Source: Planctomycetota bacterium (GTDB taxonomy: Bacteria > Planctomycetota > MHYJ01 > JACPRB01). From it: DNA of 43,757 nt. Positions 7,904 to 17,212 of this stretch are shown piece by piece. The DNA is taken from positions 1 to 43,757 of the forward strand of contig DATLZA010000027.1 in assembly GCA_035574235.1 (NCBI GenBank). Direction: 5' to 3'. The position numbers and the translations under genes are program-made. Position 1 is the stretch's first letter, and each line of letters opens with the position of its first letter. The notes under the pieces are model-generated. The model ran no database searches, was not told where the DNA came from, and saw nothing but the letters and a program-made list of their open reading frames with translations.

Positions 7904-8482
7904 ATGCGATATCCCGCCGCCGCGGCGGCGCTGGCGTTCGTCCTGGCCGCCTGCGCGTCCGCCGAGTCCTGGCCCGGGCCTTCGCGTCCGTTCCGGGGCA
8001 AGATCCACGGGATCCCCGGCATGATCGAGGCGGAAGATTTCGACGAGGGCGGGGAAGGCGTGGCCTACCACGACGCCGAGGCGCGCAACCTCGAGACCCG
8101 CGGCGCCCCGTACCGCGAGTCGGGAGTGGACCTCGAATGGCGTCCCGAGGCGCGCGGGGGCTACAACCTGGGATGGACCCGGCCGGGCGAGTGGCTCGTC
8201 TACACGGTGGAGGTCCGGGAATCCGGCCTCTATCGGCTGGATACGAGCGTGGCCTGCAAGGGCCCGGGCGGGACGTTCCGGATCGAGTTCGGCGGCGTGG
8301 ACCGCACCGGGCCGATCGAGATTCCCGACACCGGAGGATGGCAATACCTCAAGCCTCTTTCCCGCGAAGGCCTCCGCCTGGAGGCGGGCCGCTGGGCGAT
8401 GAGGGTGGTCCTGGACCGGCCGGGCGCTTCGGGCAGCATCGGAGACATCGACTTCTTCACGTTCACGCGGGTGGGTCCGTGA
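7904..8482 (+). CDS. CBM6-like lipoprotein
   Basis: A 192-residue exported protein. A hydrophobic signal ends in the lipobox LAAC with Cys17. The rest resembles a carbohydrate-binding module of the CBM6 type: the opening IEAEDFDEGGEGVAYHD, the central WTRPGEWLVYTVEVRESGLY, and the closing GSIGDIDFFTF. Such modules bind glycans and usually ride on glycoside hydrolases, yet no catalytic domain is attached. Its TGA overlaps the GTG of the next gene, so the two are likely translated together. It could bind a cell-surface or extracellular polysaccharide; the ligand is unknown. Confidence 0.7.
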   Translation: MRYPAAAAALAFVLAACASAESWPGPSRPFRGKIHGIPGMIEAEDFDEGGEGVAYHDAEARNLETRGAPYRESGVDLEWRPEARGGYNLGWTRPGEWLVYTVEVRESGLYRLDTSVACKGPGGTFRIEFGGVDRTGPIEIPDTGGWQYLKPLSREGLRLEAGRWAMRVVLDRPGASGSIGDIDFFTFTRVGP

Positions 8483-9402
8483 GGAAGGCGCCCTACGTCC
8501 TGGCGATCCTGGCGACCTTCGGGGTGGGGATCGCGGATCTGGCGCTTCTCGGGGTCCCCGCCTTCCGGAACGGCTGGTGGACGATGGCCCTGTTCGCGGT
8601 CCCCGCGGCGTTCCTGGGAATCGGGCGGCGCGGGGCGGGCGCGATCCGGTTCTGGGCCTGGGCCGTCTTTCTGGCGGGGCTGCTCGGGTATCCCGCGCTT
8701 CGACTCTGGGCGTTCCGCGTGCCTCAGGATCCGCCGGCGGTGTCGGTCGGGTCGCGGGCGCCGGACTTCACGCTTCCGGACGCCGAGGGGCGCCCGGTGT
8801 CGCTCGGGGAACTCGCGCGCGGAGGGCGCGTCCTTCTGGTTTTCTTCCGCGGCCCGGGCTGACCGGTCTGTCGGGCCGAGCTTTCGGCCCTGGCCGCCCG
8901 CCTGGAGGACTTCCGGAACTCGCGGGTGACCGTGGTCGCCGTGGGGCCGCAGCGCCCGGAGGACGCCCGCGCGCTCGGACTTCCGTTTCCGGTGCTCTCG
9001 GACGTCTCCCTCGAGGTGACGCGGCGGTACGGGCTTCTTCACCCGGGAGGCTTTCTGGGACGGGATGCGCCGCGGCCGGCGCTTCTGCTGCTGGGGCCCG
9101 ACCGGGTCGTGCGCTGGATCCGTCCCGCTCCGGATGTGCGGACGCGGCCGGCGCCGGAAGAAATTCTGGAAGCGCTCCGGAGCGCGCGCGGTCCGGGGGG
9201 GGGCGGGACGCCGCCGGTCAGAAGGGTTTCCGCGCGGTCGGCGCGGCGGCGGCCTTCGCCTCGGCGGCCAGCGCCTCGGCGAGCTCGCGCATTTCGCGGT
9301 CGCGCGCGGCGGCGGCGAGCAGCGCCTCCTCCGCCTGACGGGTTCCCTGCCGCGCCAGCGCGGCCAGCGCGGCCCGGCGCGTCTCGGCGGAATAGCCCTT
9401 GA
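8479..9402 (+). CDS. Membrane-anchored peroxiredoxin-like selenoprotein (TGA read as Sec)
   Basis: Begins at GTG 8479 (GTGA overlap with the lipoprotein). Residues 4-80 contain three membrane segments (near 6-26, 33-49 and 58-79). An AhpC/TSA redoxin domain follows from about residue 88, opening GSRAPDFTLPDAEGRPVSL. At 8860-8862 the frame meets TGA (codon 128), within FFRGPG-U-PVCRAEL; family members have Cys there. The same frame continues as clear redoxin sequence (VTVVAVGPQRPEDARALGL, then LLLLGPDRVVRWIRP), so this is one gene. A hairpin fitting a bacterial SECIS starts 11 nt after TGA. The redoxin fold ends near 9190; the remaining Arg/Pro-rich tail to 9402 runs antisense to the next gene and may not be functional. 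Likely a thiol/peroxide oxidoreductase; the substrate is unknown. A nonsense mutation or sequencing error is the alternative. Confidence 0.8.
8873..8890 (+). promoter_or_regulatory. Predicted bacterial SECIS hairpin
   Basis: Perfect 7-bp stem GGGCCGA (8873-8879) with TCGGCCC (8884-8890) and loop GCTT. The loop begins 18 nt after the TGA and has G as its first base. Both match what I recall of the bacterial SECIS consensus: apical loop about 16-37 nt after UGA, with a G in the first two loop bases. It would bind SelB carrying Sec-tRNA. Confidence 0.7.
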
Positions 9403-12400
9403 CGAGCCCCAGGAAGCGCGGGCGGCGCTCGACGATCCGCGAAAGCAGAGGCACCGACGCCGGGTTGGGCGCCGCCTCGAAGTAGGCGCAGCAAAGCTGC
9501 AGGAGGCGCTCGTCCTCCGTGGCCTCCATGAGCTTGCCCACTTCGGCGCCGAGCTGCGGGATCTTCAGCCGGGCCGCCAGCTCGAGCCCCCGCACGCGGC
9601 GCCCCTCGTCGGCGCTCCCCAGGAGCTGCCGCACCACCGGAGCCGCCAGCGGCGCCGGCCACCGCTCCGCCGCCTCGAGAATCATCCGGCGGACCTCGGG
9701 GGGGCCTTTCTCCGCCAGCTCGGCCAGGTGACCCGCGAGCGCCGGTCCGAGAAGCGGATCGATCACCTCGAGGAGCCGGGCGACGCGGTCCGGCGGCGTC
9801 TCGGGGCCCAGGACCTGCGCGAGCTCCCCGGCCACCTCGGCCGCCGCGAACCCCAGGGCCGTGGCCATCGCCTTGCGCGCCGCCGGGTCCGGCTCGTCCA
9901 GGAACGCCTCCAGGAGCCGCCGCACCGCCTCGCCGCCGATCGACAGGAGAATGTTCGCCGCGGTCAGGCGCTCCTCGGGCCGCGGCTTGCGGAGCGAGGC
10001 CAGAAGCACCGGGTAGGCCGCGGTCTTCGGGATGTCCTGGAGGATCGATTCGCACGCGATGGCGATTTCCTGGGGGGTGTCCGCGGCCGCGGCGCGCTTG
10101 CGAAGCACGGAGCCGGCGATCTCCGCCAGTTCCCGCAGGCACCCCACCGTGGCGGCGGCCGGGATCCACAGCGGGAGGATGTCCGTCGCCGTGCGGAAAA
10201 GCTCAGGCGTCTTGTCCTCCCAGAGCCGCTGCCGGAGCGGAGGAGCGGAGCGCTCGACCTCCAGCCGGCGCGTTCCCGGCGAAGCGAAGGCGAGCGACCG
10301 GCCCAGAAGATCGAACGCGCGGCGGCGGTGGCGACCGCTCGGGTCGGCGAAATGCGCCCCCAGGCGGTCCACGAGCTGCTCCGCGAGCGGCCGGAGCGCT
10401 CCGTACGCGAGCGTCTCGACGAGCGCGGGGAACTGCTGCTCGAGCTCCCCGGAGAGGAACTCGGCATACGGCCGGGCCAGAAGCTCCCGCGCGCGGATTT
10501 CGGAACGGATGGGCCTGGGCGGCGGGGCCACGGCGACGACCGTCCGGCCCTCCTCGGCGCGCGCGTACTCGCGGGAGCCGAACTCCACGTGGACGAACTG
10601 CTGCAGGAGGCCGGCGGCCGGCGTTCCGGGCGGCATCGAAAGGAAACTCACCAGGGCGCGCACCTCGTCCTCCGTGAGCCCCGAGGCGAGCGTTATGCTC
10701 TTGAGGGCGCGTTCGTCGATCTCCTTCACGAGGAAGGCGCCCGCCTCGCCGTAGAACTTGCGGTCGCCCGGCCGGCCGTTGACGACGAGCTCCCCCTCCG
10801 CCGTTCCGAGAACGACCGCCGGGACGCGCGCGCAGAGCTCCGTGAGCGCCCGGGAGGCCTCCCGGGCCGTCTCCTCGACGAGCGAATGCCCCGGCGGGTA
10901 GAGCTTGAGGGCGTCCACGGCGGCCTTGAAGAGGCGCAGGGCGTCCCGGAGCGCCGGAAGATGCTCGGGCGGAATCGGCCCCTCGGCCGCCCGCGCGGCG
11001 GCGCGCGCGTCGCGCTCGCGGACCTGGTAGGCCTTCTGGACGAGGTCGATGCCCTCGAGCCCCTCGCGGTCGAGGAAGCGGTCCCAGTGGTCGGCCTCCG
11101 CGCGCACCCGGTCGAAGGGCTCGGTGAACGCCTTGAGGAGGGTCTCGATGCGTCCGACGTCGAAGGAGGGCAGGAGCGTCAGGGACTCCACGAGGCGTTC
11201 GTCGAGGAGCGCGGCGAAATCGGCGGCGACCGCGGCATCCGAGGGCCGGCCGTTGATCGCGGGGCCGGCGGAGCCGGCGGAAAAGGTGAAGCCCGGCGCG
11301 GCCGCCAGGAGCGCCCGGAGTTCGTCCCGGAGCTGGGCGACGAATCCCGCGCTCACCTGGCTCCACTGCGGATAGAGCCGCCCGACCTTGAGCGCTCCGG
11401 CGAAGTGCCGCAGGGCGGCCAGCGCGTGCTCGAGGGCCGCCGGGGAGAGCGGCTCCTTGCAGGGCTCCAGCCGCGCGCGGCGCGCGCCCTCCCGCCGCGG
11501 GGGCCTGAGGATCTCCGCGCGGCGGCGCGCCACGGCGTCGAAGTGCCGGGCCCGGTCCTCCCGGCCGGCGCGCCCGTAGTGATAGGCCAGCTCGTCGGCC
11601 AGATGGGCGACGTCGCCCCCGTGGCGGGCCTCCTGAGCCACGCCCACGCGCGCGTGGAGATGGCGGCGCTCGTCGTCCGGCGAGGATTCCAGACGCGCCC
11701 GGCGGGCGTAGGAGGCCGGGAAGGAGAGAAGTTCCGTCTCCGTGTCCGACGTCACCAGGAGGCGCGCGCGCCGGGCCTCGTCGATGAGGTCCAGCATCTC
11801 CATGTCGTCCTGGCCCATGACCTCCTGGAGGAGATCGGGATCCACGTCCGCCCCGATGACGGCGGCGCCGAGGAGGAGCGTGTTGGCGCGGGCCGGAAGC
11901 GCTTCCGCCACGGCGCGCACCGCCCCGTCGAGGTCCCGAGGAAGGTCGGCGGGTCCCAGGGCCGGGATCTTCCATCGGCCGTCCGCCAGCCGCACGCGGC
12001 CCTTGAGGAGAAGCGCGCGGAGGGTCTCTTCGAGCCAGAGCGGGTTGCCGCCCGAGGACTCGACGAGCTGCCGCACGGCGTCGGGGGCGAAGTCGGCGTC
12101 CGGCAGGATCGCCTGGAGCATCCGGCCCATTTCCTCGGGGGTCAGGGGGCCCAGGGCGAGCGTGACGGCCGAGGGGCCGCGCTCGCGGAAGAAATCCCCC
12201 GCCCGCGTGCGGGCGAACGCCTCCGCGTCCAGGTCCGTGGCGGCGGCCAGGAGATACGGGACGCCCCGGGCGGCCGCCTGGCGGAGGGCCTCGAACGTGG
12301 CCGCGTCGGCGTGCTCCGCTTCGTCGAAGGTTACGAGGAGCGGTCCCTCGCGCGCCAGCTCCGCCAGGAGCGCGGGGAAGGCCTCCCAGAGGAGGCGCGC

Positions 12401-13342
12401 GTAGCGGGACAGCTCGAGCTCCGCGGGCCGGTCCGGGAGCGGGTACTCGCGGAGCACCACCGCGAGCGCGCTGCGGGGGTCGGGACCCAGCCGCAGGAGC
12501 GCCTCGCGCACGATGCGCGGATCGGTGACGGAGAGGCCGTCCACCGCCTCGGCGAGGCTCGCGTAGGGGAACCCGGCGCGGGGTTCCCGGCAGGTGGTCG
12601 AGAGCACCACGAACCGCTCGGAGCGGGCCCAGATTCCCAGCTCCCGCAGGAGCCGCGACTTGCCCAGGCCCGCGGGGCCGGTCACGAGCGCGCAAGAGGC
12701 GCCCACATGGCGGGCGTCCGAGGCCATCTGCCGGAGCTTGGCCTGTTCGGGCGCCCGGCCGATCAGCAGCGGACAGGGCAGGCCGCGGAAGACGCCGATT
12801 TCGGCGAGCACCGCCGGATCCAGGCGTCCGGCGACGGCGACGCGGTCGCGTCCCTGGCGCTTGGCGACGAAAAGCGCCAGTTCCGCCGCCTCGATGAGGA
12901 GCGTGGGCGAGCGGCCGTCCACGGGATAGGACGAGGCGGACGCGCTGGCGGTGAGGGCGACGCGCAGGCCGCCTTGGTCGTCCGCGCCGAGCGCGAACGG
13001 TTCGGAGCGCACGGCGGCGCGGAGGGTTTCGGCGCAGCGCAGGCCGCGCTCCTTGTCGGCTCCGGGCAGGAGCGCGCAGAACGCGTCCGCCGCCCAGCGG
13101 TAGAGGAGGGTGTCCGGTTCGGCGGCCGCGCGGAGCCGCCGGGCGACTTCGGAGAGCAGACGCTCCACGAGCGCCTTGGGGAAGCGCTCGGTGGCCGATC
13201 GGAAGCCGTCCAGGTCGAGCATTACGAGCGCGCCCTGGCCTCCGGGGACGCGTTCGCGAAGGTCCCTGAGAAGGGCGCGGCGGTTGGCCAGTCCCGTGAC
13301 GCGGTCCAGGAGCGCGGGGTCGGGCGCGGCGGAGGCGTTCAT
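9218..13342 (-). CDS. Giant GGDEF-like / ATPase / HEAT-repeat signalling protein
   Basis: A 1374-residue protein, ATG at 13342. Residues about 10-170 are a GGDEF-like domain whose signature is degenerate (WAADAF at 83-88 instead of GGDEF), so cyclase activity is unlikely. An STAND/AAA-type ATPase follows, with Walker A GPAGLGKS at 222-229 and a Walker B-like LLVTFDEAEHAD. The middle holds two diverged copies of one domain, each with a LYP motif and a NGRP motif (INGRPSDA and VNGRPGDR). The C-terminal 350 residues are alpha-helical HEAT-like repeats. No membrane segment is seen. Its ATG overlaps the kinase stop by 4 bp, so the kinase and this protein are probably made together. The kinase may phosphorylate or be scaffolded by it; this is inference. 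Confidence 0.75.
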   Translation of the reverse strand: MNASAAPDPALLDRVTGLANRRALLRDLRERVPGGQGALVMLDLDGFRSATERFPKALVERLLSEVARRLRAAAEPDTLLYRWAADAFCALLPGADKERGLRCAETLRAAVRSEPFALGADDQGGLRVALTASASASSYPVDGRSPTLLIEAAELALFVAKRQGRDRVAVAGRLDPAVLAEIGVFRGLPCPLLIGRAPEQAKLRQMASDARHVGASCALVTGPAGLGKSRLLRELGIWARSERFVVLSTTCREPRAGFPYASLAEAVDGLSVTDPRIVREALLRLGPDPRSALAVVLREYPLPDRPAELELSRYARLLWEAFPALLAELAREGPLLVTFDEAEHADAATFEALRQAAARGVPYLLAAATDLDAEAFARTRAGDFFRERGPSAVTLALGPLTPEEMGRMLQAILPDADFAPDAVRQLVESSGGNPLWLEETLRALLLKGRVRLADGRWKIPALGPADLPRDLDGAVRAVAEALPARANTLLLGAAVIGADVDPDLLQEVMGQDDMEMLDLIDEARRARLLVTSDTETELLSFPASYARRARLESSPDDERRHLHARVGVAQEARHGGDVAHLADELAYHYGRAGREDRARHFDAVARRRAEILRPPRREGARRARLEPCKEPLSPAALEHALAALRHFAGALKVGRLYPQWSQVSAGFVAQLRDELRALLAAAPGFTFSAGSAGPAINGRPSDAAVAADFAALLDERLVESLTLLPSFDVGRIETLLKAFTEPFDRVRAEADHWDRFLDREGLEGIDLVQKAYQVRERDARAAARAAEGPIPPEHLPALRDALRLFKAAVDALKLYPPGHSLVEETAREASRALTELCARVPAVVLGTAEGELVVNGRPGDRKFYGEAGAFLVKEIDERALKSITLASGLTEDEVRALVSFLSMPPGTPAAGLLQQFVHVEFGSREYARAEEGRTVVAVAPPPRPIRSEIRARELLARPYAEFLSGELEQQFPALVETLAYGALRPLAEQLVDRLGAHFADPSGRHRRRAFDLLGRSLAFASPGTRRLEVERSAPPLRQRLWEDKTPELFRTATDILPLWIPAAATVGCLRELAEIAGSVLRKRAAAADTPQEIAIACESILQDIPKTAAYPVLLASLRKPRPEERLTAANILLSIGGEAVRRLLEAFLDEPDPAARKAMATALGFAAAEVAGELAQVLGPETPPDRVARLLEVIDPLLGPALAGHLAELAEKGPPEVRRMILEAAERWPAPLAAPVVRQLLGSADEGRRVRGLELAARLKIPQLGAEVGKLMEATEDERLLQLCCAYFEAAPNPASVPLLSRIVERRPRFLGLVKGYSAETRRAALAALARQGTRQAEEALLAAAARDREMRELAEALAAEAKAAAAPTARKPF

Positions 13343-15318
13343 GGGCGGCGGATCTCCTCGAGCTCGCGGCGGGCTTCCTCGGCCAGCGGCGTTCCCTCGA
13401 GCGTCCGGAGGATCTCGGCCGCCTTGGGGTCTCGTCCGGCCGCGCGGCAGTAGAGGGCCAGGCCCCAGCGGTCTTCCGCGCGGTCGAGCAGGCCGCAGGC
13501 GGCCGCCAGGGCGGCCACGCCCTCGGGGCCCAGGTCGGACCAGTCGGCCGCGTCGGGTTCGTCCTCTGCGAGAAAGACGACGCGGTCCGGATAGGCTTTG
13601 AAGATCCGGACGTCGCGCAGGGTGCGGCCCCGCACGGAAAGCTCCGGAAGGACGGGGCGCAGGCGGCGCACGGCGTCCGAGAGGCGTTCCTTGAAGGCGA
13701 GGACGGCGTCGCGGTGCCGGGCGAGGCGGGCGGGGCCGGGTTCGGAGGGGGAGCCCAGGCCGAGCGCCTCGGGGGCCTCGGGGCGGAATTCGGCCAGGCG
13801 GCGGAGCGCGCGTTCGGCCGGAGGTTCCGTCTCCGGGGCGGGACGGAAAGCGACCCACGCGGCGGCTCCCGTCAGGACCGCGGCCGCCAGCGCCGCGGCC
13901 GCCGGCGCGGCCCGGCGCGACCGAGGGGGCGGAAGGGAAACCGCCCGCGTCCGGGAGGAGGAGGCGCTCCCGTCCAGGACGGCGCGGGCCTTCTGGAGGA
14001 TGGAGGCGATCTCCTGCGCCACGGCCAGCGCGCTCGGGGGGCGGCGTTCGCGTTCCTTCTCGAGGCATCGCAGGCAGAGCGCCTCGAGGTCCGCGGGGAT
14101 CGACCGCGTCCGCTCGCCGGCGGCGGCCCGCTCGCGGGCCACGGTGGACGGCGGGACCGGCCGGTCGCGCAGGGTCTGGAGGATCACTTTTCCCATGTCC
14201 CCGGCGAACGGAGGACGCCCGGTGAGGACTTCATAGAGGACCGCGCCCAGTCCGTAGACGTCCGTGCGGGCGTCCACTTCGTCGTTCCGCCCCGCGGCCT
14301 GCTCGGGGGACATGTACGAGGGCGTGCCGCTGATCATGCCGACGTCGTCGGCGAAATTTCCGAGCTGGCGGGCCAGGCCGAAGTCCAGGACGTACGGCCG
14401 TCCGTCCTTGGCGATGAAGATGTTGCCCGGCTTGAGGTCGCAGTGGAACGTGGGGATCGGCCGCGTGTGGGCGTAGTGGACCGCGTGGGCCACCTGGTAG
14501 AGCACGCCCAGCCAGCGTTCGGGGTCGGCGTCCCAGAGGGACTGCTTGCGTTGCTCGCGGTGGCGGCGGATTTCGTCGTACAGGGTGTGCCCTTCCAGGC
14601 ACTCCATGCTGATGTAGTAGACCTGGCCGACGCGGCCGATGTCGTAGACCGAGACGATGTTCGGGTGGCGCAGGCGGATGGCGTTGTGCGCCTCGTTGAG
14701 GAGGCTGGCCACGCGGGAATGGTGGCCGGAAGCGGTTTCCGAAGGCTGCGGCTTGATCCGCTTGAGGGCCACATACTGGTGGAGGTAGGTGTCCCACGCG
14801 CGGGAGACTTCGGCGATCCCGCCGCGGCCGAGGGGTTCGAGGATCACGTACTTGCCGAACCGCCGGGTGGTCTCGCGGAGCGCTTCCTGGACCTCGGGGG
14901 GTACGGGCAGGCAGCTGTTGACGATGATCGAGCTTTCGACGCACTTGTGGCCGTCGCCCGGCGGGGGCGGCCGGAGCGGACCTTGGCAGCGGCCGCACTG
15001 GTACGCGATGGCGTCGGGGCGGCGGTCCACGTTGACCAGAATCTCGCAGCTCGGGCAGAAGAGGATCTTCTTGTCCTGCTCCCCGAGCGCGCGCTCCACC
15101 GCCTCGCGCGTGACGTAGCCCTTCCGGACGAGAATCTCGCCCAGCCGCGGGGGCGGCGTCCCCTCGCGCCCGACCATCTCGCGCTGCGTGCGGAGGGCGT
15201 CCTCGAGCTGCTCCGGGCGCAGAAGTCCGTCCCGGACCAGGATCTGGCCGAGATCCGCCTTTTCGGGAACGGGCGGGAGGGAGGACGGCGCCGGAGCCTT
15301 CTCGGTGCGCGGTTCCAT
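13339..15318 (-). CDS. Membrane Ser/Thr protein kinase with zinc ribbon
   Basis: A 659-residue Hanks-type kinase. Residues 23-80 contain two copies of a short motif, LGQILVRDGLL and LGEILVRKGYV, like the N-terminal domain of PilB/GspE ATPases. A zinc ribbon follows (C88, C91, C108, C111). The kinase domain runs from about 154 to 440: Gly loop LGRGGIAEV, Lys186 in VALKR, catalytic HCDLKPGN (Asp294), DFG at 312-314, SPE at 337-339. The usual HRD is HCD, a non-RD kinase that may not need activation-loop phosphorylation. A single membrane segment near residue 475 precedes an extracytoplasmic helical domain. It leads the operon with the giant ATPase protein. Confidence 0.9.
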   Translation of the reverse strand: MEPRTEKAPAPSSLPPVPEKADLGQILVRDGLLRPEQLEDALRTQREMVGREGTPPPRLGEILVRKGYVTREAVERALGEQDKKILFCPSCEILVNVDRRPDAIAYQCGRCQGPLRPPPPGDGHKCVESSIIVNSCLPVPPEVQEALRETTRRFGKYVILEPLGRGGIAEVSRAWDTYLHQYVALKRIKPQPSETASGHHSRVASLLNEAHNAIRLRHPNIVSVYDIGRVGQVYYISMECLEGHTLYDEIRRHREQRKQSLWDADPERWLGVLYQVAHAVHYAHTRPIPTFHCDLKPGNIFIAKDGRPYVLDFGLARQLGNFADDVGMISGTPSYMSPEQAAGRNDEVDARTDVYGLGAVLYEVLTGRPPFAGDMGKVILQTLRDRPVPPSTVARERAAAGERTRSIPADLEALCLRCLEKERERRPPSALAVAQEIASILQKARAVLDGSASSSRTRAVSLPPPRSRRAAPAAAALAAAVLTGAAAWVAFRPAPETEPPAERALRRLAEFRPEAPEALGLGSPSEPGPARLARHRDAVLAFKERLSDAVRRLRPVLPELSVRGRTLRDVRIFKAYPDRVVFLAEDEPDAADWSDLGPEGVAALAAACGLLDRAEDRWGLALYCRAAGRDPKAAEILRTLEGTPLAEEARRELEEIRRP

Positions 15319-15379: not shown

Positions 15380-15934
15380 CTATTCGCCCGCGGTCTGCAG
15401 GAGGAGGGACTTGAGTTCGTTGTAGTACGTCGGATTCGCCAGATCGCGGGTCAACAGGTTATACACGCGGACCTTGCGGTTCTGGCGGTCGAGGATGAAA
15501 ACGTCATCCTTGGACGCCCCCCAGCGGGACCAGACGTTCCCCGAGGGCGTGATGTCGTCCTGGAGCCAGGGAATCGTCCGGCCCGTCGTGATCGTTCCGT
15601 TGCCGGACTCCTCGCCGAGGACGTTGATTCCGAGGATCCGGATGGCGGTGGCCGGGTTGGCGGTCAGAAGCTCGGTCTGCATTTCGTCCAGTTTCCCGAA
15701 CTGGGTCTGGCAATAGCTTCAGGTGGCGTGGCCGAAGTACCAGGCCGAGACTTGATCCAGGTAATCGCGGGGCGAGACCTTCTGATTGTAGGTGGCCGAG
15801 TTCGGGTTGACGTCGGTGAGGGAGAAATCGGGCATGACGGGGGGAGGGCCGTCCGAGTCGGAATCCTCGCGGCAGGCCGCTGCGAGGGCCAGAGCCGCCA
15901 GGAGCGCCGGTCGGATCAGCGTCGTGCCGCGCAT
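15380..15934 (-). CDS. Exported redoxin selenoprotein (TGA read as Sec)
   Basis: Reads from ATG at 15934 through an in-frame TGA at 15721-15719 (codon 72) to the stop at 15380, giving 184 residues. The N-terminus is a lipoprotein-like signal (LALAAAC, Cys21) followed by an Asp-rich linker. The thioredoxin-like core includes PDFSLTDVNPNSATYN, then YFGHAT-U-SYCQTQFGKLD, where U is Sec72 and Cys75 completes a UxxC motif. After the TGA the frame stays plainly protein-like (IRILGINVLGEE, DDVFILDRQNRKVRVYNLL). An SD-like GGAGG (15944-15940) precedes the ATG by 5 nt, and a SECIS-like hairpin follows the TGA. Likely a periplasmic or outer-surface thiol oxidoreductase. A pseudogene is the alternative but is disfavoured by the hairpin and by the second such gene nearby. 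Confidence 0.8.
15688..15704 (-). promoter_or_regulatory. Predicted bacterial SECIS hairpin
   Basis: On the minus strand a perfect 6-bp stem, CCAGTT (15704-15699) with AACTGG (15693-15688), closes a 5-nt loop CGGGA. The loop starts 21 nt after the TGA and has G in its second position. This fits the same bacterial SECIS rules as the hairpin at 8873, with unrelated sequence. Confidence 0.7.
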
Positions 15935-15991
15935 TGGGACCTCCGCCAACGTAGCGCGGGGCCGGGCCGGGAGCAACGGAAACCCGCGCGT

Positions 15992-16030: not shown

Positions 16031-17212
16031 ATGCCCCGGGACTTCGTCTCCAGGAAGGCCGCCCGTTTCACCGAGAGCGTCATCCGGGAGATGACCCGCC
16101 TGGCCGACCGCCACGGGGCGATCAACCTGGCTCAGGGCTTTCCGGACTTTCCGGCCCCCGCGGCGCTCAAGCGCGCCGCCTGCGAGGCCATCCGGCGCGA
16201 CGTCAACCAGTACGCCGTCACCTGGGGCGCGCCCGCCCTCCGGGAGGCTCTGGCCCGCAAGTACAAGAAGTACAACCGAATGGACGTGGACCCTGACCGA
16301 AATATCACCGTCACCTGCGGCGCCACGGAGGCCATGATCTCGGCGCTCCTGGCGGCGGTCGATCCGGGGGAGGAGGTCATCCTTTTCGAGCCGCACTACG
16401 AGAACTACGGGCCCGACACGATCCTCTCCGGCGCCACGCCCCGCTTCGTGCATCTGCATCCTCCGGACTGGCACCTGGACGAGAAGGAGCTGGCGCGCGC
16501 CTTCAACCGGCGCACGAAGGCGATCGTCCTGAACACCCCCAACAATCCCACGGGGAAGGTGTTCACGCGCCGGGAGCTCGAGACGATCGCCCGGCTGTGC
16601 CTGAAGTGGGACGTCCTGGCGGTCACGGACGAGGTGTACGAGCACATCGTCTACGAGGGGGAGCACGTTTCGATCGCGTCGCTCGACGGCATGGCGGAGC
16701 GGACGATCACCACCTCGTCGCTCTCGAAGACGTTTTCGATCACGGGCTGGCGGCTCGGATACTGCATCGCGCCCGAGCGGCTGAGCGGCGCGATCCGGAA
16801 GGTGCATGACTTCCTCACGGTGGGGGCGCCGCATCCGCTCCAGGTCGCCGCGGCGCGGCTTCTGGACCGGCCGGGGACGCTCTTCGAGGACCTGCCGCGC
16901 GAGTACCGGGAACGCCGCGAGGTCTTCTACCCGGCGCTCGAGGCGGCCGACTTCCGTCCGTTCCGGCGTCCCGCCGGCGCGTACTACGTGATGTGCGACG
17001 TCTCGCGGTTCGGGTTCCCGGACGACACGGCCTTCGCCCGGTGGTTCGTGCGGGAGGCCGGGATCGCCGTGGTTCCGGGCAGCTCTTTCTACGTGGATCC
17101 CGCGCGGGGGCGCCACCTCGTCCGGTTCGCCTTCTGCAAGCGCAAGCCCACGCTGCGCGAGGCGGCGCGGCGCCTGGCCCGCCTTTCCGTACCGGCCGCC
17201 GCCCGCTCATGA
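16031..17212 (+). CDS. PLP-dependent class I/II aminotransferase
   Basis: A 393-residue fold-type I aminotransferase of the kynurenine/methionine aminotransferase type. It has the INLAQGFPDFP opening, the LNTPNNPTGKVF motif, DEVYEHIVY, and the PLP-binding SSLSKTFSITGWRLGY with Lys233. These enzymes are promiscuous, using aromatic amino acids, Met or Gln, so the substrate cannot be set from sequence. Its stop overlaps the murQ ATG (ATGA), which puts it in an operon with muropeptide recycling; the reason for that link is not evident. Confidence 0.88.
   Translation: MPRDFVSRKAARFTESVIREMTRLADRHGAINLAQGFPDFPAPAALKRAACEAIRRDVNQYAVTWGAPALREALARKYKKYNRMDVDPDRNITVTCGATEAMISALLAAVDPGEEVILFEPHYENYGPDTILSGATPRFVHLHPPDWHLDEKELARAFNRRTKAIVLNTPNNPTGKVFTRRELETIARLCLKWDVLAVTDEVYEHIVYEGEHVSIASLDGMAERTITTSSLSKTFSITGWRLGYCIAPERLSGAIRKVHDFLTVGAPHPLQVAAARLLDRPGTLFEDLPREYRERREVFYPALEAADFRPFRRPAGAYYVMCDVSRFGFPDDTAFARWFVREAGIAVVPGSSFYVDPARGRHLVRFAFCKRKPTLREAARRLARLSVPAAARS

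Follow-up and report, generated by a model that had tools for sequence, protein, structure and literature searches.

The catalytic residue of peroxiredoxins occupies the second position of their signature motif, TxxC or TxxU, and the SCO proteins are characterized by a CxxxC copper motif. In the membrane-anchored, extracytoplasmic thioredoxins of the ResA/TlpA/DsbE group, the active site, with two cysteines, is located where the first long helix begins. Selenocysteine (Sec) in the first motif position combined with a peroxiredoxin-like thioredoxin fold is listed for the Prx-like thiol:disulfide oxidoreductase selenoproteins, which are assigned to PF00578 and contain UxxC (PMC13188914, Table 1). 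The selenoprotein family to which the gene described here belongs has already been catalogued by NCBI as NF053656, redoxin_TUGYCR, "TUGYCR motif thioredoxin fold (seleno)protein"; no paper naming this family was found in a literature search, and the terms used did not retrieve it from a 2026 review. The gene analyzed in this work, located in a stretch of 43,757 nucleotides from a Planctomycetota genome (hereafter, the window, at its full length), is a well-supported member of NF053656 and adds a strongly evidenced lineage to an uncharacterized selenoprotein family that is represented by a curated model.

The original prediction, made from the DNA alone, described a minus-strand frame of 184 residues that continues through a TGA at 15721 in the context USYC, and all these details, including the coordinates (Table 1), were reproduced exactly. 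The product begins with MRGTTLIRPALLAALALAAACREDSDSDGPPPVMPDFSLTDVNPNSATYNQKVSPRDYLDQVSAWYFGHATUSYCQTQFGKLDEMQ, and the frame contains a single TGA. The read-through product matches NF053656 with 212.1 bits (E 3e-63; the curated cut-off is 100 bits), with residues 34-180 aligned to profile positions 1-145 of 146, and the match spans both sides of the TGA. The window protein belongs to the family as judged by score, full coverage and active site, and the name of the model allows Sec; the name gives UGYC, however, whereas the window protein has USYC, with Ser at the first x, as do two relatives (L019 and L031) and the Cys-containing homologues discussed below. In the Pfam comparison, the similarity of the read-through product to AhpC-TSA and SCO1-SenC is weak and below the cut-off (19.5 bits for PF00578, AhpC/TSA, against a gathering cut-off of 26).

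Table 1. Predicted features of the redoxin gene and of its surroundings in the window
Feature	Position	Strand	Basis
Predicted selenoprotein gene, 184-residue lipoprotein redoxin	15380..15934	minus	ATG 15934, TAG stop 15382-15380
In-frame TGA, codon 72, predicted Sec in motif ATUSYC	15719..15721	minus	sequence; same codon TGA in 13 further genomes
TGC, Cys75, family-wide invariant; predicted second redox residue of UxxC	15710..15712	minus	family alignment
GGAGG, putative ribosome-binding site, 5 nt 5' of ATG	15940..15944	minus	sequence
Lipoprotein-type signal, MRGTTLIRPALLAALALAAA followed by C, predicted lipidation Cys at residue 21	15872..15934	minus	sequence; lipoboxes of relatives
SECIS-like hairpin, UUGCCAG-A-CCC[AGUUC]GGG-AAA-CUGG-A-CGA	15684..15713	minus	fold -10.2 kcal/mol; family covariation
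Competing stem, CCAGUU-CGGGA-AACUGG (6 bp)	15688..15704	minus	seen in longer and shorter folds
Aminotransferase, upstream, divergent	~16037-17212	plus	
Ser/Thr kinase with MshE-like domain, downstream, 61 nt away	13339-15318	minus	
1616-residue frame following the Ser/Thr kinase; GGDEF, AAA and HEAT-repeat domains	9218-14068	minus	

Among the 392 genomes of the phylum that were searched, 14, from several families, contain an above-cut-off copy with exactly one TGA, always at the equivalent of codon 72. In the alignment of these 14 members, U72 and C75 are invariant and T71 is nearly so, in keeping with the T-U-x-x-C active site of NF053656 (ATUSYC in the window protein). Three further above-cut-off copies lack a TGA, namely, tandem domains in two genomes (G222 and G083), in which Ser and Ala replace U and C (SIYA and SLYA), and one fragment in G222. 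Both tandems (L059 and L060) consist of a Ser/Ala domain followed by a Sec domain, and the former may be a redox-dead partner of the latter. In the fragment (L069; G222:C669:3084-3395), which lacks both the first strands of the domain and Sec, a lipoprotein-like signal in another frame extends as far as the domain's second half (CRSQLGYLETMQ...); this is either a remnant or an assembly fault.

The signal peptide that had been proposed for the N-terminus looks like one of the lipoprotein type rather than a plain signal peptide. Judged by eye, MRGTTLIRPALLAALALAAAC combines a positively charged start, a hydrophobic stretch and small residues before the Cys, and lipoboxes are found among the relatives as well (LLPSC, LIPAC, LLSGC, LAPGC, WLPAC and VLAAC); in five relatives, the domain is preceded by a longer N-terminal region without a clear lipobox. 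These sequence features suggest that the protein is lipid-anchored at Cys21 and is extracytoplasmic.

An AlphaFold model built from four sequences shows, with fair confidence, a thioredoxin-like domain (mean pLDDT 76.7, pTM 0.75, with residues 1-19 below 50), in which UxxC marks the beginning of the first long helix (residues 73-92); a model from the single sequence was poor (pLDDT 45.8) and was set aside. The nearest solved structures are those of DsbE and ResA (Z 16.6-16.1), followed by peroxiredoxins (Z ~15-16). A sequence search of solved structures yielded only a flagellin hook motif protein, a spurious match. The ResA/TlpA/DsbE proteins, the best structural matches, share the position of the active site with the window protein but are only 14-18% identical to it, and the window protein has Sec in place of their first Cys. 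Compared with the Prx-like selenoproteins of PF00578, which share the first-position Sec, the window protein scores below the PF00578 cut-off and belongs to a separate sequence family. Weak sequence similarity to SCO1/SenC was detected in 5 of the 14 members, and BsSco is among the Foldseek matches, but the window protein contains UxxC instead of the copper motif.

Taken as a whole, the gene most likely encodes a membrane-anchored selenol/thiol-disulfide oxidoreductase. The alternative to be weighed here is that the protein is a Sec-dependent peroxidase of the peroxiredoxin type, as could be suggested by the weak similarity to PF00578 and PF08534, by the structural likeness to peroxiredoxins, which is almost tied with that to ResA, and by the RDxxILD strand, which in our reading of the alignment is closer to peroxiredoxins than to the cis-Pro loop of ResA. 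Sec in the first position followed by Cys in the second is, however, the pattern of disulfide oxidoreductases, unlike the TxxC/TxxU of peroxiredoxins. Because Sec occupies the first rather than the second position of the motif, we consider a disulfide oxidoreductase probable and a peroxidase possible but doubtful. As a disulfide oxidoreductase, the protein would function in the cell envelope, with Sec72 and Cys75 forming the UxxC redox pair of the thioredoxin fold; judging from the motif positions and the Cys homologues, Sec72 would act as the nucleophile on a disulfide or peroxide substrate, and Cys75 would resolve the adduct of Sec72 as a selenenylsulfide.

All these functional considerations presuppose that the TGA is read through. 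The third-position GC is 86% on the 5' side of the TGA and 88% on the 3' side (the GC content of the window is 70%), so that both parts appear to be coding. The similarity to homologues continues past the TGA, with 46-60% identity to five relatives, compared to 65-76% in the part of the domain that precedes it. Given that both halves of one domain are in the same frame, that the score against NF053656 reaches 212 bits and that the same codon is TGA in 13 other genomes, the read-through frame cannot be attributed to chance. Conceivably, the locus could encode two proteins without Sec, one that ends at the TGA and another initiated within the gene at the ATG at 15682, and a mechanical ORF with this start (15380-15682) does exist. 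Such an arrangement would cut the thioredoxin fold at the active site, whereas the conservation of the domain is unbroken on passing the TGA and extends to the UxxC codons, which lie upstream of any internal start, and the Cys homologues are encoded in one uninterrupted frame; we regard two separate proteins as very unlikely. The gene is of the kind that simple ORF callers break into two pieces, as had been anticipated for automatic annotation; because NF053656 is already curated, however, current automatic annotation need not split it.

The hairpin that the original prediction placed downstream of the TGA appears to be real, chiefly on the strength of family covariation and not of this single sequence, in which two alternative pairings compete (Table 1). 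In 11 of the 14 members, a perfect 6-bp stem, whose 5-nt loop is AGUUC or differs little from it, begins at the 11th nucleotide past the UGA; in the three members from the window's own family (the window gene, L018 and L021), the loop is retained together with 3-4 adjoining pairs. Over the whole family, 91.7% of the cells are paired, and 22 changes on both sides of the stem were counted compared to 5.8 in shuffled alignments, whereas controls with a slid register are paired in no more than 44%. In the window, the loop AGUUC (15702-15698) is located 16 nt past the UGA and has G as its second nucleotide; the top stem runs for only 3 bp before an interior loop, beyond which the lower stem resumes. 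The published bSECIS model specifies a loop of 3-9 nt with G in one of the first two positions, located 16-37 nt from the UGA, an upper stem of 4-16 bp, and an energy of at most -7.5 kcal/mol (PMC13188914). The window hairpin fits in loop size, G, spacing and energy, with a reservation about its short top stem, and we consider it an interrupted variant of the family hairpin that mostly fits the published bacterial model. The folding energy of this hairpin taken alone is unremarkable (z -1.1 to -1.7), and the evidence for it lies in the family; a scan of the window with Rfam at the gathering level gave no match.

In the 17-nt family register, the energies are -5.6 to -10.1 kcal/mol for the Sec relatives and -3.5 kcal/mol for the window, against 0 to -1.2 kcal/mol for the Cys and Ser homologues. 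This contrast pertains to the family register rather than to folding in general, given that some of the Cys/Ser controls adopt other structures in 39-nt folds (-1.2 to -7.8 kcal/mol). The Cys/Ser homologues retain the peptide but lose the stem, as would be expected of a stem that functions in Sec insertion, and they provide a clean natural control in which the RNA structure accompanies Sec.

The Sec genes on which the prediction depends are all present in the same genome: tRNA-Sec with the anticodon tca (68.9 bits), selA (568 bits), selB (341 bits, including its in-frame neighbours) and two above-cut-off copies of selD. One of the selD copies (L053; G000:C165:30105-31013) contains an in-frame TGA, as in the Sec-containing SelD, and the other copy (G000:C10) does not. 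Across the Sec-form genomes, selB was detected in 11 of 14, the other three being incomplete (76-88% complete), and selA in 11 of the 12 that were searched for it. From this machinery and the RNA structure, it can be proposed that SelB carrying Sec-tRNA(UCA) would recognize the hairpin immediately past the UGA and insert Sec72.

The remaining explanations can hardly be sustained. The TGA might be a nonsense mutation in a CxxC gene, that is, a pseudogene, or a sequencing or assembly error, and the window does come from a single draft genome (203 contigs, 4.66% contamination); but the TGA is at the same codon in 13 independent genomes from several families of the phylum, frame and composition are conserved past it, the hairpin covaries, and the Sec machinery is complete, which makes such an origin extremely improbable. 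Genome-wide reassignment of TGA to Trp or Gly, which would also leave an in-frame TGA open, is practically dismissed by the homologues with Cys but never Trp or Gly at the site, by the dedicated tRNA-Sec and selA/B/D, and by the large neighbouring proteins of the window, which are read under table 11 without an internal TGA. The gene is thus, with a high degree of confidence, predicted to be a functional, Sec-inserting member of NF053656.

The CxxC orthologues that had been expected were found in Planctomycetaceae and Pirellulaceae (L074-L076), in the form of ATCSYC, with TGT or TGC as the codon. Identity between these homologues and the window protein is 44-48%, and the Cys-form domain is the C-terminal part of very large proteins, two of which have open frames that span 1625 and 1651 residues. 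They were retrieved when genome contigs were searched with an alignment as the query; a single-protein query with non-conserved peptide patterns found none. Two of the three Cys-form genomes encode selA and selB, so that Cys is not simply a marker of the absence of the Sec machinery. An unlikely possibility is that these proteins represent an almost Sec-only lineage of envelope redoxins within one phylum, with either Sec or, in the tandem copies, a redox-dead Ser/Ala pair, and with Cys seen only in the large surface-type proteins of Planctomycetaceae; were this the case, Sec might be needed for function rather than being merely advantageous.

The genomic context is uninformative with respect to function because no conserved gene neighbourhood was seen across the relatives beyond the redoxin itself. 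A link to the Ser/Thr kinase, which is adjacent in the window and has a 31% identical counterpart frame in one relative (L067), was treated as chance given that such kinases are common. No match to a sigma-70 promoter or a terminator emerged when the surrounding 850 bp were scanned. Five other thioredoxin-like frames in the searched genomes score below the NF053656 cut-off but carry one TGA each, in the active-site motif (UHAC, UGFC or UGPC; L027, L028, L039, L047 and L050), and are probably further selenoproteins. The window itself contains a second frame with a TGA at a redoxin active site (8137-9225, plus strand; TGA 8860-8862, GPGUPVC), which consists of a seemingly membrane-embedded region followed by an AhpC/TSA domain (86 bits) and is weakly related to SelL in NCBIfam. 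The description of the two redoxins as unrelated is fair (BLASTP E = 0.061), although the active sites of both fall within the short match. The stretch past the TGA of the second frame folds with -21 kcal/mol (z -1.15).
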